A stretch of DNA of 64,000 bases, taken from contig JAJDUL010000035.1 in the NCBI GenBank assembly GCA_022826685.1, positions 62,001 through 126,000 on the forward strand. The letters are read 5' to 3'. This document shows positions 14,897 to 28,319 of this stretch, one piece after another. Each line of letters opens with the position of its first letter. Position 1 is the stretch's first letter. Below the pieces are notes generated by a model that worked only from the letters and a program-made list of their open reading frames with translations, ran no database searches and was not told where the DNA came from. Both the position numbers and the translations under genes were made by a program. The DNA comes from Gemmatimonadota bacterium. GTDB taxonomy: Bacteria > Gemmatimonadota > Gemmatimonadetes > Palauibacterales > Palauibacteraceae.

Positions 14897-15679
14897 TTAA
14901 CGGTCGCGCGTCGTGATCACGAGAGCGCCGATGTAACCGTCGCCCCCGTAGCGCGCCGAAGCTTCCGTGCGCGACAGGATCTCGATCCGGCTCACCTCGT
15001 CGATGGACAGCTCGCGAATCGCGTTCACGCCATCGCCTTCGCGCCTCTCGTTGATGCGTACTTCCATCGCCTGCTCCCGGAACGATCCCCACGAACTCAA
15101 CGTCACCGACGTGAGAAGGATGACCTCGCCGAGCGTGCTCATGCGGTCGAATTTCAGGAGCGAGTGTTGGCGCAGCAGCTCGTACACGCTCATCTCCGGA
15201 AGATCCACAAGATCCTCGGCGCGGATGACCTCGGAGCCCAGGATCCGGCTCCGGCTGCCCCCCGCGGCCAGGGATCCGACCTCCTCCCTCCGTCGGGGGT
15301 CCGAGGTCAGCGAGAGGGAGAGGTCCTGCTGGGCCAGCGCGACGGCCGTGGTGTACGGGACGGCTTCGCCGCGCCGGTCGCCGAAGGCGGCCCGCAACGA
15401 AACCTCCATGTCAAGCGGCAACCCGCAGATGGCGTAGAGGCCCTCCATGCCGACCTCGGCTTCGACGCGTTGACGGGCGTCAAACTGCACCCAGCTCGCC
15501 GCCACGGTCGCGCCGGGCACGATCGTCTCCGCTTCGGGATCCGTCACGTAGCCCACGACGGCCGCTTCCGTCTCGGGGTCCCCGCCGGGGCAGAAATCGG
15601 CGAAGGACTGGGCGGCCGCGGAGTTCGCGACCACGAGCATCAAGGCGGGCGCCGAAAGGCGCACGAACGAGTACGGCAT
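14897..15679 (-). CDS. Exported TonB-plug-like protein without barrel, copy 1
   Basis: 260 residues from ATG 15679, with GGAGGGAG about 9 bases upstream. After a signal peptide ending NSAAAQ, residues about 30-125 form a CarboxypepD_reg-like beta domain (AVVGYVTDPEAETIVPGATVAASW). The C-terminal half resembles a TonB plug: EVIRAEDLVDLPEMSVYELLRQ, SIDEVSRIEILSRTEASARYGGDGYIGALVITTR. The protein stops exactly where a receptor would start its barrel. A close paralogue lies directly upstream (15706). Either a periplasmic plug-only protein or a relic of a receptor is possible; two intact copies with good ribosome sites favour a functional protein. Confidence 0.65.
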   Translation of the reverse strand: MPYSFVRLSAPALMLVVANSAAAQSFADFCPGGDPETEAAVVGYVTDPEAETIVPGATVAASWVQFDARQRVEAEVGMEGLYAICGLPLDMEVSLRAAFGDRRGEAVPYTTAVALAQQDLSLSLTSDPRRREEVGSLAAGGSRSRILGSEVIRAEDLVDLPEMSVYELLRQHSLLKFDRMSTLGEVILLTSVTLSSWGSFREQAMEVRINERREGDGVNAIRELSIDEVSRIEILSRTEASARYGGDGYIGALVITTRDR

Positions 15680-15705
15680 GTCGACTGCTCTCCCTCCGAA
15701 GCCGG

Positions 15706-16485
15706 CTAGCGGCCTCGCGTTGTAATCGCGATCGCTCCGACGAACCCGTCTCCGCCGTAGCGCGCGGAAGCTTCGGTACGCGTCAGGATCTCGATCCGGC
15801 TGACCTCGTCGATCGACAGGTCGCGGATCGCCGCAACGCCGTCCACCTCCCGCCGCTCGTTGATTCTCACCTGGACGGACTGCAGGCGGCCGGCGCGGAG
15901 GCTCGAGGTCGCGGACGTGAGGAGGATGACCTCGCCGAGCGTGCTCATGCGGTCGAATCTGAGGAGCTGGTGCCGGCGCAGCAGCTCGTACACGCTCATC
16001 TCGGGCAGATGAAGGAGATCCTCCGCGCGGATGACTTCCGAGCTGAACGCCTGGCCCCTGCCGCCGCCTGCGGCCAGCGATCCGACCTCCTCCCTCGTCT
16101 CGGGCTCCCCGGTAAGCGAAATGAAGAGATCCGCCTGGGCGAGCGGAGCGGACGTCGCGTAGGGCACGGCCTCTCCGCGCCTGTCTCCGAGGAGGGCGCG
16201 CAGCGTGACCTCCGTGCCCTGCGGCAGCCCGCAAAGCGCATAGAGACCCTGAATGTCCGTCTGTACCTCGATTCGCTGGCGCTCGTCGTCGTGCACCCAG
16301 CTCGCGGCCACGGTCGCGCCGGGCACGATCGTCTCCGCTTCCGGGTCCGTCACATAGCCCACCACGGCCGCCTGCGTCGCTTCGTCGCCGCCCGGGCAAA
16401 AGTCGACGAACGACTGGGCTGCGGCGGTGTTCGTGATGGCCAGAAACAGAACAGGCCCCGGAAGGCGCAAGAGCGAGTGCCGCAT
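15706..16485 (-). CDS. Exported TonB-plug-like protein without barrel, copy 2
   Basis: 259 residues from ATG 16485, with an AGGGA ribosome site about 7 bases upstream. The open frame extends upstream without a signal; from 16485 a signal peptide (MRHSLLRLPGPVLFLAITNTAAAQ) is present. It has the same two-part layout as the downstream copy: a beta domain (AVVGYVTDPEAETIVPGATVAASW) then a plug-like part (EVIRAEDLLHLPEMSVYELLRR ending TEASARYGGDGFVGAIAITTRGR). The next start (15679) lies 26 bases beyond its stop, so the pair is one operon. CPGGD near the mature N-terminus and ALCGLP give two conserved cysteines, perhaps one disulfide. Confidence 0.65.
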   Translation of the reverse strand: MRHSLLRLPGPVLFLAITNTAAAQSFVDFCPGGDEATQAAVVGYVTDPEAETIVPGATVAASWVHDDERQRIEVQTDIQGLYALCGLPQGTEVTLRALLGDRRGEAVPYATSAPLAQADLFISLTGEPETREEVGSLAAGGGRGQAFSSEVIRAEDLLHLPEMSVYELLRRHQLLRFDRMSTLGEVILLTSATSSLRAGRLQSVQVRINERREVDGVAAIRDLSIDEVSRIEILTRTEASARYGGDGFVGAIAITTRGR

Positions 16486-16707
16486 GTCGATCCCTCTCGT
16501 CTGCAATCGTTCTCTCGGCTGTAGCACGCGCGTGCGGGCACAGTGCCGATGGTTGTCGCGGTGCGAGCGACCCACCGACCTTTTAGGATACTCCCCGTCC
16601 GTTTTGCGTTTAGTCCGGGGCCCGTTCAGGAAGTCGACGACCCCGGTCACTCCCTATACCCGGCAACATGCCGCGGGTGCCGCCCCGGGGCCGCTACGGA
16701 GGAGCCG

Positions 16708-18731: not shown

Positions 18732-18980
18732 CGGTCGTGGGGGAGACCGGCGGCCGTCGAGGACGTGACCTTGCCCGCGCTTCAGTCGTACCGGCAGCTC
18801 TAGAGCCGACCGTCCCTCATCGGCTCCCTTCCCCCCAAAACCTCGGGAGTATTTTCCGATACGGAGATGAGCTTGGACGAGGAATCGTGAGCCGACCCTG
18901 CGGGCTGTTGGGCGTTCTTCCGGACAATCCTCGCTGGAGGGGGGGCGGCGCAACGGGGCTCGGGGGGCAGACACGGGGAC

Positions 18981-19634
18981 TCAGGCGACCGACGCGGCGG
19001 GGTCGAGGGAGCGGAAGAGGTCGCGGCGGGCCTCTCGGACGGTCTTGGCGGTCCGGAGGTGGCGGGGGCGACGCGGTCGAGTGTCTCGAAGGTGACGCCC
19101 TCGCGCAGCAAACTCTCCGCGTCGTCGAGGGACTTAAGCTTCTCGTAGGGTGTGGCGACCTCCGGTTGGCATTAGCGCTTCTTGGTGCGGCCGCACGTGC
19201 CTCGGCCTCGGAGGGGAAGAGGCAGGCCGGAAGTTGAGGAAGGGACAGAGGTGGTCGCGGAGGAAGTCGTTGACGGCGGGTTTGGAGAGGCGGCCGTAGG
19301 CCTCGTCGACCTCGACCCGGAGGGCGGCGTCCCTGGGCGTGTAGCGCCGCCGGTAGGCGCTGGCCGGGGGCTTCCCGCAGCGGTCGCGGATGTCGCCGGT
19401 CCTTCGGTGCTGGGCGATGAGCCGCATGAGCTGGGCGCGCGAGAGCCCGGTCACCTTGGCGATGTGAGCCCCCCGTCCGAACCTCCCCAGCCGGTAGTGG
19501 TAGCCGAAGCCCTCCAGCGTCCGGCGCACGAGGGCGTAGGCCGAGTCCCGGTCATCGAGGGTGAAGTCCACCGGATTCGTTGCCGTCGAGAAAGGCGCGA
19601 ACTCCGTCAAGCGTACAGATCCGTTCGATGCCAC
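18981..19634 (-). pseudogene. Integrase-type transposase remnant with the catalytic core deleted
   Basis: The N-terminal part (from 19634 downward) encodes a DNA-binding region of an rve-type transposase: LDDRDSAYALVRRTLEGFGY, KVTGLSRAQLMRLIAQHRR, RRRYTPRDAALRVEVDEAYG. It runs straight into a C-terminal tail of the same kind of protein (NDFLRDHLCPFLNFRPA, then after a stop and shifts VATPYEKLKSLDDAES, LLREGVTFETLDRVA and TAKTVREARRDLF, ending at TGA 18983-18981). The DDE catalytic domain that should lie between is missing, and two frameshifts follow. It is an internally deleted, dead element. The stretch 18732-18980 downstream holds no gene that I can support. Confidence 0.65.
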
Positions 19635-19741
19635 GCGTCACGATCCTACCTCCGTGATCTCATCGCCCCGCGCTTCGGCCCAACTGCCACTGGAAACCCC
19701 TCCTTCGTTCAGGCCTATCTGCCGTCGGACAAGACTCGGCC

Positions 19742-19770
19742 TTGACAGCTAATCGGGCGCACCCTACGAT
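19742..19770 (+). promoter_or_regulatory. Sigma70-like promoter of the cysteine-peptide cassette
   Basis: TTGACA (19742-19747) and TACGAT (19765-19770) are separated by exactly 17 bases. A start near 19777 would give a leader of about 130 bases before the first peptide gene. No other gene lies between. Confidence 0.55.
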
Positions 19771-19780
19771 AACCTTCCCT

Positions 19781-19876
19781 TGCATAAAAAAAATGCACGG
19801 CTCGGTCGCCGGAGACCGTCGGCTGGACGTTTAAAAGGGACACGGTGACGTTGGCGGCGCTTCCAGAGGGAGCGCC
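19781..19876 (+). promoter_or_regulatory. Structured 5' leader of the peptide cassette
   Basis: Three short hairpins follow the proposed promoter: TGCAT/ATGCA around an A-run (19781-19797), CGGTC/GACCG (about 19803-19818), and GGCGCT (19856-19861) with AGCGCC (19871-19876). The last ends about 30 bases before the ATG. A regulatory role is only a guess. Confidence 0.3.
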
Positions 19877-19906
19877 AGAACACCAAAGAACAAGGATGAC
19901 TCTACC

Positions 19907-20140
19907 ATGCGGATCAAATGGTCTCGGTATCTGCCCATCACGCTCGCAGCATCCCTCTTCGCTTTCCTTGCGCTCACGTTCGCGGCCCAGCGTAGTAGCG
20001 CTTCCACGCCTAGCATCCAAGCCTGCGGCGCCTACCAGGGCAATGTCTGTAACAAGAAATGTACTCGCCGCTGCTTCGTGTCGGGAGAAGGCTGGAAGTG
20101 CTGCACTTGGACCTACAAGTATTGGCAGATAATCCAATAG
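19907..20140 (+). CDS. Secreted six-cysteine mini-protein 1
   Basis: 77 residues; AAGGA lies 10 bases before the ATG. A strong signal peptide covers about residues 1-33 (MRIKWSRYLPITLAASLFAF then LALTFAAQRSSAS). The mature part is about 43 residues with six cysteines in the order C-x7-C-x3-C-x3-C-x8-CC, then an aromatic tail (TWTYKYWQIIQ). Basic residues fill the central loops (NKKCTRRC). The same framework, C-x7-C-x3-C-x3-C-x5-CC plus an aromatic tail, appears in the mini-protein at 22247, so this is a family rather than a chance ORF. The spacing is like small disulfide-knotted peptides. The next gene encodes a DsbA-like thiol oxidoreductase, a natural partner for folding. I do not recognise the family. 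Toxin, bacteriocin, signal or structural peptide are all open. Confidence 0.7.
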   Translation: MRIKWSRYLPITLAASLFAFLALTFAAQRSSASTPSIQACGAYQGNVCNKKCTRRCFVSGEGWKCCTWTYKYWQIIQ

Positions 20141-20151
20141 GTCGGGAAGCG

Positions 20152-20163
20152 GTACAAGTACCG
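20152..20163. repeat. 12-bp repeat after peptide gene 1 (GTACAAGTACCG)
   Basis: The 12-mer begins 12 bases after the stop of the first mini-protein. With the two preceding bases it forms the dyad CGGTAC-AA-GTACCG (20150-20163). An identical 12-mer lies downstream of the second mini-protein at 22547-22558, next to the end of the IS481 element. Confidence 0.5.
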
Positions 20164-20237
20164 GCAAGTAGTAATCGGGGCTGAGGTTCCACCGCTCTCG
20201 CGGTTGTTCCATCGACCGCGATAAGGAGATGGTCACT

Positions 20238-20909
20238 GTGCCTAACTTTTTGAACAACGCCTTTAAGTTACTGTGGATCCTCTTCTTGGCTTTTGCGGTA
20301 GCCCTATATGGTCGTGCACAATTTCGTACCATTGACGAATCCCATTCTGTTGCATCCGTCTCGCCTGACGTGGCAAGCGCCATCCGAGGAGTCGATAGTC
20401 ACGCCCCCGCTGCGGGAACTAGCGGCCAAGTCGTCGTTCTCTACTCGAACTATCTGTGTCCATTCTGCCGTGAACTGTGGAATAATATAGAGTTGCTGAT
20501 ACGCGACGATCATCCCTCCACATCCATGCGAGTCTACGTTAGGCATCTCGTGGCGCCCATAGCTGACGATCCCGCCTACATGGCGGCCTTAGCTGCGGAG
20601 TGCGCGGGCGAACAGGGTAAGCTTCGCGAATACCACCGCGCGATCTTTGCTGAGACCGAGCGAGGCATCCTTACGCGGGCCGTGCTTGATCGCTTAGCCG
20701 CTGGGACGGTCGGGGATACGGTGCGCTTCCAGTTGTGCATCAATACGGACAAATATAGGCCTCGCATCATCATGGCGGGCAACGAAGCTGCGCAGCTATC
20801 CGTGATCGGGACTCCGACGCTGCTCGTAGGTGATCGGTTGATAAGCGGTACGCCCGATGCGGAGGAGCTCCGCCGTATTCTCAATAAACACGGAGGATTG
20901 GCCCGATGA
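20238..20909 (+). CDS. Membrane-anchored DsbA-like thiol:disulfide oxidoreductase
   Basis: The GTG at 20238 is chosen because AAGGAG (20223-20228) lies 9 bases upstream; the ATG at 20229 abuts that site and is too close. 223 residues. An N-terminal helix (about 8-26, FKLLWILFLAFAVALYG) looks like an uncleaved anchor. The thioredoxin-fold domain has the active site CPFC at about 74-77 (LYSNYLCPFCREL), a helical insertion with a third cysteine (AAECAGEQGKLREYHRAIF), and a cis-proline loop (IGTPTLLVGD). This is the Thioredoxin_4/DsbA layout and points to the periplasm. Position between two cysteine-rich peptide genes suggests it makes or isomerises their disulfides. It overlaps the next gene by 4 bases (ATGA), so the two are co-translated. 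Codon use is less GC-rich than in the flanking chromosome. Confidence 0.8.
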   Translation: MPNFLNNAFKLLWILFLAFAVALYGRAQFRTIDESHSVASVSPDVASAIRGVDSHAPAAGTSGQVVVLYSNYLCPFCRELWNNIELLIRDDHPSTSMRVYVRHLVAPIADDPAYMAALAAECAGEQGKLREYHRAIFAETERGILTRAVLDRLAAGTVGDTVRFQLCINTDKYRPRIIMAGNEAAQLSVIGTPTLLVGDRLISGTPDAEELRRILNKHGGLAR

Positions 20910-22087
20910 TGCGATGGTTGGGGACGGAGCACGTCGGAGCGAAGATCACGATGGTGTGTTGTGTGATGGGTCTCGCTTTCGCGTGCAACAAGGGGACAAG
21001 GGACGAGCGTGCGGTAGTAGGCGCACCCACTGTGAGCATAGATCGGCACACCAGCGACGTCACGGGAGAGGAAGCAGCCCGGAAATGGGTGCCGACCGTG
21101 CAGTTGGGCCGATCGGTCGGTCGGGACGAGAATGTGTTTTACAGAATCGTGGCTGCTTTTCGAGATCGCAGAGGCTACTTGTTCGTCGCCAACGCAGGTA
21201 CGAACGAGATTCGAATTTATTCCGAGGCTGGCCACTTCGTGGATTCGTTTGGTGGCGACGGAGCGGGACCCGGGGAATTTCTCGACCTGTCAACCATCGT
21301 GCCAATGGGGAGGGACTCAATCATGGCCTTGGACTCCGGGAACAATGGCATTTCTATCTTCGATCGGAGAGGTGTGTATGGCCGATCCTTCAATATCTCG
21401 TCGCTAGGGTCCCACCAAACGATCGGCGCGATGTGGTTGCCGGGCCGCATGGATGCGACCGGCGTCAGCGAAAAGATGTATGTCGCAGTAACGGGTGGTC
21501 TAGATCCGAGGATGATGAGCCTCGCGAGGGACTCGATATCTGTGTTGAATGTCACGGACAATGGTTCCGCGACGAACTCGCTCGTGTCGATTGGCGATCG
21601 TTGGTGGGAGAGCTATCGTGCCGCAGCGGCGTTTGGGCTGCGAGCCGCGCTGGAGGGACCGGCGGCGGTCATGTCGATTTCCGTCGATGGAACGCGAATT
21701 GCTTCGAGTTCGAATGATCAGCCAATAATTGAGCTCTGGACAGGATCGGGACAGCTGTCGGCGACATGGGAGGACCGGGATCATCCGGCAGGGTGGAGAG
21801 ATGGTGCGAACATAGTGCGGTCATTGGAAGACGCAAACCGCGCGGGACGGTTTTACGCACAACTGCTGTGGAGTGAGAACAATAAATTGTGGATCGGTGA
21901 TCATGTAGAGGAGAGTAATCCTGGACGGATGTGGACTATCGTAAATGAGGAAGGAGCGGTCGAGGGATCAGTTACATTGCCGTCGAATGCGCGTCTGTTA
22001 CAGGTGGGCGCGGACTTCGTGTTGCTAGTGACGATGGATCGCTACGGTGTGGAACGAGTCGAAGTGTGGCAGCAGAACGGAGCCTAG
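20906..22087 (+). CDS. 6-bladed beta-propeller lipoprotein of the peptide cassette
   Basis: 393 residues; GGAGGA lies 9 bases before the ATG, and the start overlaps the stop of the DsbA-like gene. A lipoprotein-type signal ends at MGLAFACNKG. Propeller blades follow: AFRDRRGYLFVANAGTNEIR, SFGGDGAGPGEFLDLSTI, DSIMALDSGNNGISIFDRRG. This is the 6-bladed propeller type common in Bacteroidota and Gemmatimonadota, often encoded next to small secreted peptides. A binding or processing role toward the mini-proteins is inferred from position only. G+C is visibly lower than in the flanking chromosome, like the rest of the cassette. Confidence 0.7.
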   Translation: MMRWLGTEHVGAKITMVCCVMGLAFACNKGTRDERAVVGAPTVSIDRHTSDVTGEEAARKWVPTVQLGRSVGRDENVFYRIVAAFRDRRGYLFVANAGTNEIRIYSEAGHFVDSFGGDGAGPGEFLDLSTIVPMGRDSIMALDSGNNGISIFDRRGVYGRSFNISSLGSHQTIGAMWLPGRMDATGVSEKMYVAVTGGLDPRMMSLARDSISVLNVTDNGSATNSLVSIGDRWWESYRAAAAFGLRAALEGPAAVMSISVDGTRIASSSNDQPIIELWTGSGQLSATWEDRDHPAGWRDGANIVRSLEDANRAGRFYAQLLWSENNKLWIGDHVEESNPGRMWTIVNEEGAVEGSVTLPSNARLLQVGADFVLLVTMDRYGVERVEVWQQNGA

Positions 22088-22246
22088 GAGCGACGGATAC
22101 GCGACGAGCTTGAATGAGCCCGTTGCTTGTCCCGTCCCGTCGATTGGAGGGTGAAAACGGAAACATGAGATGTGAGTAGGCGAACCACTAGCTAGAAGCG
22201 CGAATGCGAGACGTTCCGAATCCGTTAGACTGAAAGGACGATGAAC

Positions 22247-22450
22247 ATGACGTGGACGAAACTGGTATTGCGATCGGGATTGGCGGCCGTCGTCAGTATG
22301 CTGCTGATCAGTGCCGTTCCGACTCAGGCAGGAACGGTTGCGAACTGCGGTGCGGGGAAGGGCAAACTGTGCAAGACGGATTGCAAATCGTGGTGTGAAG
22401 GCGGCAGGACCTGCTGCGATCAATGGTACTATTACTACATCATCGAATAG
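22247..22450 (+). CDS. Secreted six-cysteine mini-protein 2
   Basis: 67 residues from ATG 22247, which sits 8 bases after AAAGGA; the ATG at 22241 is only 2 bases from that site. A signal peptide ends near VPTQA. The mature part of about 39 residues has six cysteines, C-x7-C-x3-C-x3-C-x5-CC, followed by an extremely aromatic tail (DQWYYYYIIE). It aligns with mini-protein 1 through CGA-x-x-G-x-x-C, the two x3 loops, the CC pair and the final I-I-Q/E. The 150 bases before it show no clear promoter, so it may depend on readthrough from the upstream genes. No known family is recognised. Confidence 0.7.
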   Translation: MTWTKLVLRSGLAAVVSMLLISAVPTQAGTVANCGAGKGKLCKTDCKSWCEGGRTCCDQWYYYYIIE

Positions 22451-22546
22451 TACCGAGTTCCTCGCTGGTTCCGGATGGGTAGTGTGAAGGTGAGCTTTCC
22501 GCACACAAGCTGGGCGATGGCGATGGCGTTCGGGTGGGTGCGGTGT

Positions 22547-22558
22547 GTACAAGTACCG
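22547..22558. repeat. Second copy of GTACAAGTACCG, at the IS481 left boundary
   Basis: Identical to the 12-mer after the first mini-protein (20152-20163). Its last three bases, CCG, are also the left flank of the IS element, and CCG follows the right end at 23769-23771. Confidence 0.5.
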
Positions 22559-23768
22559 TAATCACCTCACACCCGGCCTCGTTGAGGTCAGCGCTTCAGG
22601 CTGCGGTCTTCACCTCCTTTTTGGTTGACTTCTTCCGGCTCCGGGGCTTCCGGATCCCCTTCTTGAAGACCTGGTACGGGGTCCGCCCCTCCATGCCGCG
22701 GCCGCGGTGCGGACGGTTGCGGTTGTACGTCTCGAGGTAGGCGTCCAGGTCGGTCTGCATCTCGTCGACCGACTCGTACCAGGTCGTCCGTCCCTTCACT
22801 CTGAGGTGCTCGTCCAGGAGCGTGCGGTGGAAGCGCTCGATGAAGCCGTTTGACTGCGGACGGCCCACCTTCGTCTTCCGGTGCTCGATCTCCTCGAGCT
22901 GGAGGAACAGCTCGTACGGGTGCCGATCCTCGCGGCCGCAGTACTCGCGTCCGTTGTCGCTCAGCACCGTCTCGACCTTCACGCCGTGCTCCTCGAAGAA
23001 GGGCAGCACGTGGTTGTTCAGGATCTGGACGGCGGTCACCGGCATCTTCGACGTGTAGAGCCGGGCCCACACGTAACGGCTGAAGCAGTCCAGCACCGTC
23101 TGGATGTAGACCTTGCCCACCCCCTTCAGCGTGCCCGCGAAGAAGGTGTCCACGGCCACAAGTTCGCCCGTCTTCTTCACTTCGATGTGCCGCTCCCGGT
23201 ACTCGGGGTCGAAGCGCTCCAGCGCCAGGATCTGCTCCTCGGTGAGCTCGAAGTCGCGCTCCCGGACCGTCTTCTCCAGCCTGAGGAGCCGCTCGTGGCG
23301 CCTCTTCAGTCCGTTGCGGATCCACACCCCCCGCACGCCTCCGGAGCTCACCTGCACGCCGCGGAGCATGAGCTCGTCGGCCACCCGCTGCGCCCCGTGC
23401 GTCGGGTGCGCCAGCGCGTGGGCCAGGATCGCCTCCTCGACCTCCGAGGCGACGCGGTTCGGGTGAGGACCTCGAGCGCCCGGCATGCGGTCCAACAGCC
23501 CCTCGGCCCCGTACATCTGGAAGTTCCTTCGGATCTCGTAGAACTGCTGCCTGCTGTAGCCCGCGATCCGGCACGCCTTCGACACGTTGCCGAGTTCCTG
23601 GGCGAGTTCTAGCAGTGACAGCTTCCGCCGAGCTATCTTCTCGGCCTGGACGGTGGTCATTCTTCTCTCCTCCGTGGTTGTTGAGTCGTTTAGAGCACTT
23701 CTCAACTAACCTCGGCGGAGGCCGGGTGGCCACCGTCCCCCTTTTTGGGGGCAGCTGTCAGGTGATTA
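22559..23768 (-). mobile_element. IS481-family insertion sequence
   Basis: About 1.2 kb. Imperfect terminal inverted repeats are visible: TAATCACCTCACA at 22559-22571 and TGTCAGGTGATTA at 23756-23768, matching at 12 of 13 positions. CCG flanks both ends and could be a short target duplication. The single transposase gene fills most of the element. A CCCCC-TTTTT-GGGGG hairpin lies just inside the right end (23737-23751). Confidence 0.7.
22596..23660 (-). CDS. IS481-family transposase
   Basis: 354 residues from ATG 23660, with GGAGAG 6 bases upstream. An N-terminal helix-turn-helix region (LAQELGNVSKACRIAGYSRQQFYEIRR) and a second winged-helix part (HPTHGAQRVADELMLRG) precede the rve DDE domain. 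The catalytic residues are in LVAVDTFFAG (D), TVLSDNGREY (D) and GFIERFHRTLL (E). The tail RGMEGRTPYQVFKKG is typical of the family. The frame is intact, so the element may still be active. Confidence 0.9.
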   Translation of the reverse strand: MTTVQAEKIARRKLSLLELAQELGNVSKACRIAGYSRQQFYEIRRNFQMYGAEGLLDRMPGARGPHPNRVASEVEEAILAHALAHPTHGAQRVADELMLRGVQVSSGGVRGVWIRNGLKRRHERLLRLEKTVRERDFELTEEQILALERFDPEYRERHIEVKKTGELVAVDTFFAGTLKGVGKVYIQTVLDCFSRYVWARLYTSKMPVTAVQILNNHVLPFFEEHGVKVETVLSDNGREYCGREDRHPYELFLQLEEIEHRKTKVGRPQSNGFIERFHRTLLDEHLRVKGRTTWYESVDEMQTDLDAYLETYNRNRPHRGRGMEGRTPYQVFKKGIRKPRSRKKSTKKEVKTAA

Positions 23769-23773
23769 CCGTA

Positions 23774-24020
23774 TCAGAACATGCGGTGTGACCTCGGGCC
23801 GAGATCCTTGGCCGCTTGGACGAGAGAGTTCATGCCTTCGGTGATCGTCGAGCGGCACCGCAGGAGGGTACCGGTCCAGTGTTTCCGGATCGACGTCGCC
23901 GCGTGGGTGACGGGCGGGAGGCCGCTGCCGGCGACGCAGGAGCAGCACTGGTCGAGGTAGGCCTCTGGCAACGGGGGCGGGATGTCCGAGAACGCCTCGA
24001 AGGCGAGCGAGTCGCGAGGT
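23774..24020 (-). pseudogene. ISL3-like transposase C-terminal fragment
   Basis: Within a longer chimeric frame, the last about 80 codons match the tail of ISL3-type transposases (FSDIPPPLPEAYLDQC, TSIRKHWTGTLLRCRSTITEG, MNSLVQAAKDLGPRS). No catalytic part is present. Its stop lies 6 bases outside the right end of the IS481 element. Confidence 0.5.
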
Positions 24021-24285
24021 GGGTCTGGCCGGCGCCGGGCGGTCCAAGGAAGACGACGTTGTCCCTGCGCTCGACGAAGCCGAGTTCGTGCACGGCGTCG
24101 ACCTGCTGGCGCTTGACCGAAGGCTGGAAGCTGAAGTCGAAGTTGGCTAGGGTCTTCATGGAGGACAGCCGGCTGGCGCGGATGGCGGTGCACGTCCGGC
24201 GGCTGACCCCCAGCCGCCGCGCGACCTCCGCCTTGCTCGCCCCCCGCTCGAGATAGTGCCGCAGAAGCACCCGCGTCTATCTCCC
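24020..24285 (-). pseudogene. IS21-like istA/istB remnant
   Basis: A chimeric reading frame joins the N-terminal helix-turn-helix of an IstA-type transposase (LLRHYLERGASKAEVARRLG) to an IstB-type helper (LSSMKTLANFDFSFQPSVKR, HELGFVERRDNVVFLGPPG). The Walker A loop is degenerate: GAGQTH where GxGKTH is expected. The rest of both proteins is missing and the frame then enters the ISL3 fragment. The 24286-24521 stretch shows no gene. Confidence 0.55.
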
Positions 24286-24521
24286 CGATCATCGCGTCTT
24301 CTCCTCTTGCGAGTGAAGACGCCAGCTTACCCGCCGGCAGCATCGCGACGCGGCACGATCCCCTCCCCCGGCTACTCCCCCGCACCCATCCGGACCGTGC
24401 CATTTTCGATGCCCGGATGTGTGCAGTTTTCAGGCGCCCGCCAGCATAGCGAGGCTTGGGCGCAACGAAAAACCTCTGCGATGGCTAGCCAGCCAGAGCT
24501 TCCCCGCAGCGCCGTCTTCGG

Positions 24522-24871
24522 CTACTTCTTCCTGCGCGGCTTGAGGAAGACGTGTAGCACCGTCGCGACGATCGACATGACGAGCGCGCCGCCGACCGCA
24601 GCCGCCAGGCTGTCGAGTTCGAACCCCGGAATCAGCGAGGCGGCGAGTTGGAACATCAGGCCGTTGAGGACGAAGTAGAAGAGCCCCAGCGTCAGGACCG
24701 TGATCGGAAAGGTCACGACACGCAGGATCGGCCGGACGACCGCGTTGACGAGGCGATCGCGAGCGCCCCTCCGATGAGCGCTTCCGGACTGTCGACCCGG
24801 ACCCCGACGAGGAGCCGTGCCGTCGCGTACAGCGCCGCCGCGTTAACGAGCCAGCTCCGAATCAGACCCAT
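24522..24871 (-). pseudogene. Phage-holin-4-like (YvlD/DUF360) membrane protein, frameshifted
   Basis: From ATG 24871 the frame reads GLIRSWLVNAAALYATARLL and PEALIGGALAIA, then shifts near 24749. The correct continuation in another frame is VNAVVRPILRVVTFPITVLT and GLFYFVLNGLMFQLAASL, ending at 24522. Joined, they would give the usual about 115-residue, four-helix membrane protein. One missing base in the GATCGC-CTCGTC region explains the break. It is either a recent pseudogene or a sequencing error; the downstream half on its own lacks the first helices. Confidence 0.6.
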
Positions 24872-24905
24872 GAATCGCCGTCCGCGGCGGTCGCCGGCCT
24901 CGCCG

Positions 24906-27900
24906 TCAGAAGCCGGGCGTCAGATTGAACTGCCAGATCCAGCCCTTGTCGGGACGATCGAATGGCCGCACGAAACTGAGTTCGCCGATCATGAGGCCGA
25001 AGAGGTTGACCCGTGCCAGTAGGCCGGCGCTCGACACCCAGTTCCGGTCCTCGAACGAGCAGTTTCCATCCGGGCAGTTCAGGGGCGTTTCCCCCGACCA
25101 CGCCTTGCCCATGTCATAGAAGAGGCCGACTTCGACCGGCGGTACGCCCGGGGCCCGGATCACGCCGATCCCGCCCAGGAGCGGAAGCCGCAGTTCCACG
25201 TTGCCTACCGCCACGCGGTTGCCGATGAGATTCGCGATGAGAGGACAGTTGAAGAACGCGGCCTGACCCGAGCCCGTGCACTCGATGACATCGATGGACC
25301 GGTTGTCGTATCCGCGAACGAGGGATGGCACCCCGAGGTAGAGTCGGCCCAGGCGAGGGTCGTCCGCTCCGCCGCCCCAACGGCCGAAGTGAAGCGCCCG
25401 TCCGGCGACCGTGAAGGGCCCGGCACGAACATATTGCCGAACGTCGCCGGTGACCGTGAGGAAGTTGAGGGTTCCCACCGCCGGCTCCACTTCCAGACGG
25501 TAGCGCTGCCCGGCGATCGGACTGGTGCCGCCGAAAATCGAACTGTCGTACACGAGGGCCGCGCTGCCGCTCGCCGTATACAGCGACTCAAAGGCGCAGG
25601 GGTCCTCCCCGAACGACACGATCTCTCCCTCGCAATCCGGCAGATCTGTTTCCTCCTGGAACAGCAGCTGACCCGTGAAGGCGTCGAAGCCGAACTCCTC
25701 GATCTCGCCGGAGAAGTCGATCTGGCGTGCCGAGGCGGAGAACTCGACCCGCGAGTTCCGGTTGAAGGGATATGCGACGATCCCGGTCAGCTCCCGGTTG
25801 ACCTCGAACCAGCGGAAGTCCTGAAAAGCGTTTACGTACCTGCCCCCGGCCTGAACCGACTGGAATCCGATCTGGCGCGTGACCAGCGGCACCTGGCCTC
25901 CGATCATCGCCCAGTTCCAGCGGCTGGACCGGTTCTCGTAGCCGGCCAGGAGCGCCGTCCCCTGAACCAGGTTCCCGAAAGTCGTATTGACCTGCAGGAT
26001 CGTCTGCAGCGTGCGGTTTCCGAGCAGGTCCGAGAAGAAGAGGCTCGCGCCGCCCGCGAAGAAGACCCCGAAATCGCTCGCCCCGAAGGCGATGGTGGGC
26101 TGCGAGATGAAGTCGAGGGACAGCCGCGACTGGAACTCGCCGTCCTCGAAGGTGATCGGGTCGGCCAGGCCGAGGCGGGCGTTGGAGAGCAGTTCCGCGT
26201 GCGTGGTCGACATCCGTTCCCGCGGCGGGATGATCGAGGCATCGACGCCCACGAGCATCTCTGGCGCCGGCACCCCGGCCAGGACTTCCGGGTCGTCGAT
26301 CACATAAATCTCGTAGCTGAACGGCCCGCCCTTGTTCACGCTGAATGCGACATCGCCGGTGCCGCGCGCCACGGACACGGCCGGGCTGATGGCCGTGAGT
26401 CCGCTCACGCCGGTCCACAGGTCAGTGACGAGGTACCGCTCCCGCGTCTCGAGGTCGAGGCGGTAGAGATTGGCAATCCCGTCGTGGTCCGACACGAAGT
26501 ACAGGCTGCGACCGTCCGGCGACCACTGCGGATTGTAGTTCCTGAACTGGTCGTCGAAGCCCGGCAGCGGCTCGATCGCCCCGCTCTCCAGATCCACCAG
26601 CGCGACCTGGTAGGTTCCCGGAACGAGCAACTCCAGGTCGGTCGTGAAGCGGTCCGTCGCGAACGCCACCGATCGGCCATCGGGCGACCACGCGGGCTGG
26701 AGGTCGGCAAAGGGATCCTCCGTGAGCCGCCTCAGCTGCCCGGTCTCGACGTTGATCACATACAGGTCGGTGAATCCGGCGGAGTGGCCGCTGAACGCGA
26801 TGTGCGACCCGTCCGGCGACCAGCTCGGCGTGAAGATCGCGCCCAGCTGAAACCCCTCGACCGGGATCTCCCGGACGATATTTCCGCTTTCCGCCTCCAT
26901 GACCGTGAGCAGCGGATTGCCCGTCTTGATGCCGGCCACCGCGAAGAGCCGGCCGTTCGGGTGCCAGTCCCCCGCCGAGTGGATGAACTGGAGGCTCTCG
27001 AAGTGCGGGTCGACCGCGTTGTTCGTGAGGCGACGCTTCACCTCTCCGGTGCGGGCGTCGGCCCCGAACATCTCGATGGAGAAGAGGTCGCTCTGCGAAA
27101 CGTAGACCATGTCCAGGCCGTTGGGACTCAGCGCCGGGCCAAGGTGAAGCTTCCCCTCATCGGGAGGCTCGTAGACGACGCGGCGCCCGTAGTCGTCGGG
27201 GGAGCGGGTCTCCTGGCGCGCATCCGCGAAATAGGTCTCGAGTTCGTTCTTCCAGCGGTCCGAAAGCTCTCCGATCGGCACCTCGAGGACGGCTTCGATC
27301 GCCGCCAGCGCGTTCCCCGTGCGGGCGGCGAGATTGAGAATCCTGCCGATCCGGTCGTCCCCGAACGCGCCGCCGATGTAGGACCAGAAAGCGTGGCCGT
27401 AGCGGTACGGGAAGTACCGCCTGTCAGCGAGTTCCGGAATCGTCGGGAACCCGTCCTCCAGGTCCAGGGCGTCCCGCATCCACATCGTCGTGAACGGGTC
27501 GATGGGTCCGATCGAGAGGTATTCGGCCATGCCTTCGATGAACCACAGCGGGAGCCGGATCGCGCCGGGCACGTCCAGCCCCGGGCCTCCCGTCCCCTGC
27601 CCCGTCATGTCGAACTGGAAGGCGTGTACGAGTTCGTGGCCGAGCAGGTGATCGGTCTCGTGCAGCGACACCATCATCGGCATGACGAGCCGCCGCTTCA
27701 GGATCTCCGTGAAGCCCTGCGTGCCCTCGTCGATGAACTGGCCGGAGGTGTTCGTCTGCTCGAAGTCCGGATGGTCGGCGTAGAGGATGATCGGCTGGCG
27801 CTGGCGGAACTCGTGGTTGAGCACCCGGGAGAGGCGGGCGTACCAGCGCTCGGCGAGGCGCCCCACCATCTGCGCGCCGACCGCGCTCTCCTCGTAGTAG

Positions 27901-28067
27901 TAGATGTCGAAGTGCTGCGTCTTGAGCACCTCGAAGTCGAAAGACTCGTAGACCACCTTGTTTCGGCCGAAATACCGGCCGGCCTGCCCCTCCAGCGCGG
28001 CGGCGGCGGGACCCGAGAAGACCGCGAGGGCGGCGAGCGCGACGAGCGCGTGAGTTCTCCGAAGCAT
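24906..28067 (-). CDS. Peptidase-MA-like / TolB propeller / BamA-type barrel fusion
   Basis: 1053 residues; GGAGG lies 4 bases before the ATG. A signal peptide (1-28) is followed by a gluzincin-like peptidase domain with HELVH in LGHELVHAFQFD (about 142-153) and the downstream helix LWFIEGMAEYLS carrying the third zinc-ligand glutamate. Residues about 300-620 form a PD40/TolB propeller (PSWSPDGSHIAFSG, PAWSPDGRSVAFAT, PQWSPDGRSLYFVS). The last about 380 residues look like an Omp85/surface-antigen beta-barrel (LYLGVPSLVRGYDNRS, NVELRLPLLGGIGV, final WIWQFNLTPGF). The protein would sit in the outer membrane with peptidase and propeller on one side. Function is not known. Confidence 0.8.
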   Translation of the reverse strand: MLRRTHALVALAALAVFSGPAAAALEGQAGRYFGRNKVVYESFDFEVLKTQHFDIYYYEESAVGAQMVGRLAERWYARLSRVLNHEFRQRQPIILYADHPDFEQTNTSGQFIDEGTQGFTEILKRRLVMPMMVSLHETDHLLGHELVHAFQFDMTGQGTGGPGLDVPGAIRLPLWFIEGMAEYLSIGPIDPFTTMWMRDALDLEDGFPTIPELADRRYFPYRYGHAFWSYIGGAFGDDRIGRILNLAARTGNALAAIEAVLEVPIGELSDRWKNELETYFADARQETRSPDDYGRRVVYEPPDEGKLHLGPALSPNGLDMVYVSQSDLFSIEMFGADARTGEVKRRLTNNAVDPHFESLQFIHSAGDWHPNGRLFAVAGIKTGNPLLTVMEAESGNIVREIPVEGFQLGAIFTPSWSPDGSHIAFSGHSAGFTDLYVINVETGQLRRLTEDPFADLQPAWSPDGRSVAFATDRFTTDLELLVPGTYQVALVDLESGAIEPLPGFDDQFRNYNPQWSPDGRSLYFVSDHDGIANLYRLDLETRERYLVTDLWTGVSGLTAISPAVSVARGTGDVAFSVNKGGPFSYEIYVIDDPEVLAGVPAPEMLVGVDASIIPPRERMSTTHAELLSNARLGLADPITFEDGEFQSRLSLDFISQPTIAFGASDFGVFFAGGASLFFSDLLGNRTLQTILQVNTTFGNLVQGTALLAGYENRSSRWNWAMIGGQVPLVTRQIGFQSVQAGGRYVNAFQDFRWFEVNRELTGIVAYPFNRNSRVEFSASARQIDFSGEIEEFGFDAFTGQLLFQEETDLPDCEGEIVSFGEDPCAFESLYTASGSAALVYDSSIFGGTSPIAGQRYRLEVEPAVGTLNFLTVTGDVRQYVRAGPFTVAGRALHFGRWGGGADDPRLGRLYLGVPSLVRGYDNRSIDVIECTGSGQAAFFNCPLIANLIGNRVAVGNVELRLPLLGGIGVIRAPGVPPVEVGLFYDMGKAWSGETPLNCPDGNCSFEDRNWVSSAGLLARVNLFGLMIGELSFVRPFDRPDKGWIWQFNLTPGF

Positions 28068-28205
28068 ACAACCTCCACCAGGAAACCACTGCTCTCGACC
28101 TTCCCGGGTTCCTGGGCCCCGGGGGGCCGTGCCGTATCGCGGACGGCACGCAGTCTGGGGGTTCCGAAAACTACCCGCGGCACCGGACCTTCGCTAATCC
28201 CGCGT

Positions 28206-28219
28206 TAGTGTCGACACTA
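28206..28219. promoter_or_regulatory. Perfect 14-bp palindrome upstream of the surface peptidase gene
   Basis: TAGTGTCGACACTA is an exact inverted repeat about 140 bases before the start of the gene at 28067 (minus strand) and about 100 bases after the nfuA-like stop. It could be an operator for a dimeric repressor. No regulator is assigned. Confidence 0.3.
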
Positions 28220-28319
28220 GCACGACTGAAGCGCGAGGGAGGTCACGTTGCCTCCGATCCCGGGCTGCTCCGGACCGGCTTCCGCGCACCGTTCCCGGGA
28301 GGCGCCTGAGAAACCCAGG

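Follow-up and report, generated by a model that had tools for sequence, protein, structure and literature searches.

Background

Several described systems combine a small Cys-bearing protein with a beta-propeller or with thiol-related proteins. In the methylamine dehydrogenase maturation cluster (mauA, B, D, E), a Cys-rich small subunit and a propeller large subunit occur with the thioredoxin-like protein MauD. NVEALA peptides (PF14055) are short exported peptides, usually with an even number of Cys, and 16 of 81 Bacteroidaceae genomes contained them; at the loci that were read, a propeller-type lipoprotein directly follows most of the peptides, often in arrays, and those scanned match PF17170 (up to 1.5e-43) or PF15869. 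CxxC thioredoxin-like lipoproteins, identified by motif and without a thioredoxin Pfam match, lie nearby, and a MauE-like protein was seen once. A literature search returned no paper on NVEALA or DUF5128, and likewise none on MauE, propeller and thioredoxin in Bacteroidota. In Streptomyces, the decRiPPter survey proposed modification of Cys-rich precursors by MauE/MauD-type proteins (PMC7794033). In this study, we analyzed a 64,000-nucleotide stretch from a Gemmatimonadota bacterium (GenBank assembly GCA_022826685.1, contig JAJDUL010000035.1, positions 62,001 to 126,000; hereafter the window), focusing on a four-gene cassette that encodes two six-cysteine mini-proteins (miniA and miniB), a DsbA-like protein and a propeller. 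The cassette is probably a single mobile unit comprising an exported pair of disulfide peptides, a dedicated propeller and a thioredoxin-fold protein that manages the peptide cysteines.

Identification of the cassette genes

Four open reading frames (ORFs) were recognized in the window, all on the forward strand and in the following order:

19907-20140, forward strand: miniA, predicted exported 6-Cys peptide of 77 aa (ORF and motif; orthologue in genome G481 39% identical; profile relatives across the phylum)
20229-20909, forward strand: membrane-anchored DsbA-like thioredoxin-fold protein of 226 aa with CPFC (PF13462, 6.7e-16; PDB 4pwp, DsbA, 7.7e-12; G481 orthologue 46% identical)
20906-22087, forward strand: 6-bladed (NHL/DUF5128-type) beta-propeller of 393 aa, candidate lipoprotein (PF17170; PDB NHL 6d69, 5.6e-20; G481 orthologue 48% identical)
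22241-22450, forward strand: miniB, second predicted exported 6-Cys peptide, 69 aa, paralogue of miniA (ORF and motif; G481 orthologue 42% identical)

An initial annotation had described two signal-peptide mini-proteins sharing a six-cysteine framework and an aromatic tail, with a CPFC DsbA-like protein and a propeller lipoprotein overlapping by 4 bases between them, in a block of reduced G+C. The gene arrangement agrees with this description, the overlap being 20906-20909, and the G+C of the cassette is 0.56-0.60 vs 0.65-0.71 in the surrounding DNA. The promoter with 17-base spacing proposed in the same annotation is present as a sequence (TTGACA-17-TACGAT, 19742-19770), but constitutes no evidence, because 1.4 such sites were expected by chance in the scanned stretch.

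MiniA has the framework C40-x7-C48-x3-C52-x3-C56-x8-C65C66 and the tail TWTYKYWQIIQ, and miniB has C-x7-C-x3-C-x3-C-x5-CC and the tail DQWYYYYIIE. Common to both are C-G-x3-G-x2-C-x3-C-x3-C-x(8 or 5)-CC, followed by the aromatic tail (in miniA as CC-x3-YKYW), and a hydrophobic signal-like N-terminal stretch, the signal peptides being judged by eye. Neither peptide had a Pfam match up to E 1, and none was found in NCBIfam or PADLOC. The peptides had also been called knotted, a reading that the structure model does not support: it is a low-confidence beta-hairpin (predicted local distance difference test score (pLDDT) 71, predicted template modelling score (pTM) 0.37) with no PDB match. The inhibitor cystine knot (knotted disulfides 1-4, 2-5 and 3-6) has CC in the middle of its framework, and the CC pair here stands at the end. 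The prediction of disulfide pairing by structure modelling, which the annotation had suggested, failed, since the model is too weak to assign pairs.

Distribution and conservation of the peptide loci

About 395 genomes of the phylum, which is probably Gemmatimonadota by its family make-up, and after them 394 genomes of the class were searched with a peptide-only profile; the final profile matches include the sequences used for model building, and gene adjacency alone was used from that search. Relatives of the peptides were present in a minority of the searched genomes, giving 31 peptide loci in total, and a propeller adjoins the peptide in 28 of them, a thioredoxin-fold partner in 27 and both in 25. 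Among the exceptions, the loci of G262 and G176 end at contig ends and that of G125 has no propeller. The iterative profile search and neighbour listing that the initial annotation had recommended thus revealed repeated co-occurrence, and the nearly constant linkage of the partners supports its proposal of one functional cassette. Searching viral contigs with miniB gave no match.

The best relative was found in G481, another species of the same genus, where a miniA-like peptide, a CPFC DsbA-like protein, a propeller and a miniB-like peptide occur in the same order as in the window, with all Cys conserved at the identities listed above. Comparison of the two cassettes gave nonsynonymous divergence (dN) of 0.5-0.63, synonymous divergence (dS) above 2 and dN/dS of about 0.2. 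The G481 block has a G+C of 0.58 vs 0.68 around it, and its flanks are unlike those of the window; that the gene order is kept at an unrelated site indicates that the cassette is not a chance assembly. Each mini-protein is closer to its G481 counterpart than miniA is to miniB, so the duplication predates the species split and both copies were kept. Between G139 and G309, dN/dS was 0.19 for the thioredoxin-fold protein, 0.15 for the propeller and 0.37 for the peptide, indicating purifying selection on all three. Units of four genes that share the architecture of the cassette (peptide, thioredoxin, propeller, peptide) and encode another type of peptide were found at L338 (2718-4897) and L339 (4890-7069).

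Of 25 peptides, 23 have an even number of Cys in the mature form, and the aromatic signature lastC-x3-[YFWKH]-x-Y-[YFWNL] at the C-terminus occurs in 18 of these 25 related sequences, which are not 25 independent trials, compared with a mean of 0.13 after shuffling.

Several candidates were rejected. Among the matches listed from a DNA-pattern scan of genome contigs, the loci were chance matches by the peptide profile. The weak single-protein matches of the first phylum search were discarded, most of them having stops or lying in other frames, and a third candidate in the same genome as the window (C4:52857) contains no peptide-like ORF.

Thioredoxin-fold and propeller partners

The DsbA-like protein carries a Thioredoxin_4/DSBA domain (PF13462/PF01323) with CPFC as its CxxC motif and a TP loop at the cis-Pro position, before the second half, as in the DsbA family (PDB 4pwp, 7unn). 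It differs from that family in being linked to two putative dedicated substrates and in having relatives that lack one or both active-site Cys. DsbA-like partners at other loci carry CPFC, CVWC, CPAC or CAAC, and CPFS in G139 and G309. In many loci the partner is of a second kind, a shorter transmembrane-anchored protein with a single Cys; it has no thioredoxin family match in Pfam and is modelled with a thioredoxin fold (pLDDT 77), nearest to DsbE/ResA/CcmG (best E 5.4e-5). Because many partners lack one or both active-site Cys, a plain oxidase is disfavoured, and an isomerase, a mixed-disulfide partner or a chaperone is favoured. Simple oxidation of the peptides by the linked protein, as put forward in the initial annotation, is doubtful, given the CPFS and single-Cys partners elsewhere; roles as an isomerase, mixed-disulfide chaperone or holdase appear to fit at least as well. 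Elsewhere in the same genome, a VKOR gene adjoins another DsbA-like gene.

CPFS in place of CxxC was recorded in the DsbA-like partners at L072 (4108-4746) and L238 (7577-8206), and in G309 the peptide linked to the CPFS partner lacks the third cysteine, where coupled decay of a disulfide is possible. In one peptide lineage, an LTXXQ/Spy-like protein lies between the DsbA-like protein and the propeller (L237, 4720-5289; L336, 5325-5711; L337, 5708-6232), and a periplasmic chaperone may belong to that lineage's version of the system.

The propeller ORF matches PF17170 with 27.1 bits, above the curated cut-off of 22.9, and its structural match is the NHL protein 6d69. The propeller of the initial annotation is thus upheld, and its status as a lipoprotein is weak, since the signal ends in LAFA|C, a non-canonical lipobox. 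In three genomes (L228, L230, L341), the propeller appears to carry a fused membrane domain. At L332 (2103-2528) and in its relatives, an uncharacterised membrane protein of about 150 aa adjoins the propeller, and it is perhaps propeller-fused in G337, G188 and G192.

Comparison with known systems and proposed function

The window has a peptide next to a PF17170-type propeller, the arrangement of the NVEALA loci, whose propellers belong to the same Pfam family; the occurrence of such peptides beside 6-bladed propellers in Bacteroidota, cited in the initial annotation, was confirmed in Bacteroidaceae. By analogy, the NVEALA-propeller architecture is a known but uncharacterised counterpart of the cassette. 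The two differ in that the window peptides have no NVEALA motif or PF14055 match and a different Cys framework, that none of the 16 NVEALA tails compared shows the aromatic C-terminal signature, and that the thioredoxin-fold gene of the cassette lies inside the unit, whereas the thioredoxin-like genes of NVEALA loci, which are found in a different phylum, lie elsewhere in the array. We propose a similar working mode for an unrelated peptide family. The decRiPPter clusters resemble the cassette in that thiol/disulfide-related Mau-type proteins accompany a Cys-rich precursor peptide, and differ from it in that the passages of that article consulted mention no propeller, while the cassette has no MauE (PMC7794033).

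In the proposed mechanism, the signal peptides would direct both mini-proteins to export, and the membrane-anchored thioredoxin-fold protein would act on their Cys in the periplasm as an oxidase, isomerase or thiol chaperone. The partner may be recharged by the VKOR/DsbA system of the genome, for which genes are present and which possibly supplies the oxidation. The folded peptide would then be held at the cell envelope by the linked propeller, docking through its conserved C-terminal aromatic strand C-x3-[YFW]-x-Y-[YWF], and peptide and propeller would form the working unit, either as a ligand-receptor pair or as a complex of small subunit and propeller. A wider proposition, to which we give even chances, is that an even-Cys exported peptide, a membrane thioredoxin-fold protein and a dedicated propeller constitute a general, cross-phylum envelope system that has gone unrecognised as such, represented by NVEALA arrays in Bacteroidota and, in this phylum, by several families of peptides that often have a redox-crippled (single-Cys) peptide chaperone as their thioredoxin-fold partner.

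Some observations weigh against the reading of the cassette as a peptide, propeller and thioredoxin-fold unit. CxxC is absent from several partners, the lineage of G098, G060 and G053 has no thioredoxin partner, the strict aromatic signature is missing in 7 of the 25 peptides, and shared regulation or movement could by itself account for the linkage of the genes.

An antagonistic system, with the mini-proteins as secreted toxins or bacteriocin-like products, the DsbA-like protein as their folding factor and the propeller as protection for the producer, is unlikely. A mobile insertion, a patchy distribution, two divergent paralogous peptides and a cysteine-rich exported product would suit it, but neither a dedicated exporter nor a GG leader nor a recognisable immunity gene is present in the insertion, PADLOC returned no defence-family match, the peptides match nothing in Pfam or NCBIfam, and selection is purifying rather than diversifying. 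The suggestion of toxins in the initial annotation is accordingly unsupported.

Improbable as well is a Mau-like two-subunit redox enzyme, with the peptide as catalytic subunit whose aromatics by the last Cys give rise to a cofactor, the propeller as large subunit and the thioredoxin-fold protein as the counterpart of MauD. The same kinds of parts are present, the aromatic signature after the last Cys is conserved and one Bacteroidaceae NVEALA locus contains a MauE-like protein. However, a Pfam scan found no MauE/MauG-type gene, there being four genes only between the IS elements, and the cassette has no other cofactor-forming gene; moreover, the propeller is of the 6-bladed NHL type and not 7-bladed, the peptides are much smaller than MauA, and several peptide groups lack the signature.

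A loose association, in which abundant envelope propellers and thioredoxin-fold proteins are merely co-transcribed with the peptides, is very unlikely, because, numerous as propellers are in some genomes (as many as 248 first-look candidates), they adjoin the peptide in 28 of the 31 loci, including those of propeller-poor genomes (G285, 18 candidates in 7.5 Mb), the order of the four genes is preserved at different sites, and peptide-linked propellers form two blocks on a tree (2 label changes vs 18.3 for shuffled labels, 0/500 as low), albeit one with long branches and comparison propellers picked for similarity to that of the window.

About 245 first-look propeller candidates per genome were recorded in G017 and G153. 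Tandem propeller arrays occur in one genus (g22), and most of the propeller loci checked have no adjacent Cys peptide.

Under the preferred reading of a peptide, propeller and thioredoxin-fold unit, a class of unannotated secreted peptides, for which neither Pfam nor NCBIfam has a model, gains a repeated genetic context and a candidate partner, and a link is drawn to the NVEALA peptides of human gut bacteria, which are just as uncharacterised. At four genes, the mobile unit is of a size that can be transferred into a laboratory strain, so binding of the oxidised peptide by the propeller is directly testable.

Insertion of the cassette and neighbouring features

The following features, including insertion sequence (IS) elements, were identified around the cassette:

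18790-24506, no strand: insertion that contains the cassette and is missing in six sister genomes (blastn comparison with the orthologous regions L293-L298; low cassette G+C)
19134-19634, reverse strand: possible remnant of a dead IS to the left of the cassette, inside the insertion (imperfect inverted repeat 19136-19152/19760-19776)
22554-23773, reverse strand: IS element with an rve integrase of 369 aa (Pfam rve/rve_3/HTH; integrase ORF 22599-23705; 25-nt terminal inverted repeats 22554-22578 and 23749-23773)
23833-24270, reverse strand: IS21-type IstB fragment (PF01695, 1.4e-17)
24507-28248, no strand: segment in opposite orientation to that in all six sister genomes (blastn order and orientation)

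The insertion is missing in all six sister stretches compared; there, the sequence up to 18789 joins the 24507-28248 segment directly, the left join itself being seen in five of the six. Its absence from the sister genomes, the low G+C and the IS element at its edge support horizontal gain of the cassette, as the initial annotation had proposed. The flanking live IS element of that annotation was recovered, with its integrase and terminal inverted repeats, while the dead one on the left is only plausible, the 19134-19634 ORF having no Pfam match. In G073, an IS110-family transposase stands on each side of the cassette. The inverted segment adjoins the 5.7 kb insertion, and a single rearrangement event is likely. 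Elsewhere in the window, positions 14897-16650 encode a tandem pair of paralogous exported proteins that end in ARYGGDG(Y/F)(I/V)GA(L/I)xITTRxR, a TonB-plug-like ending.
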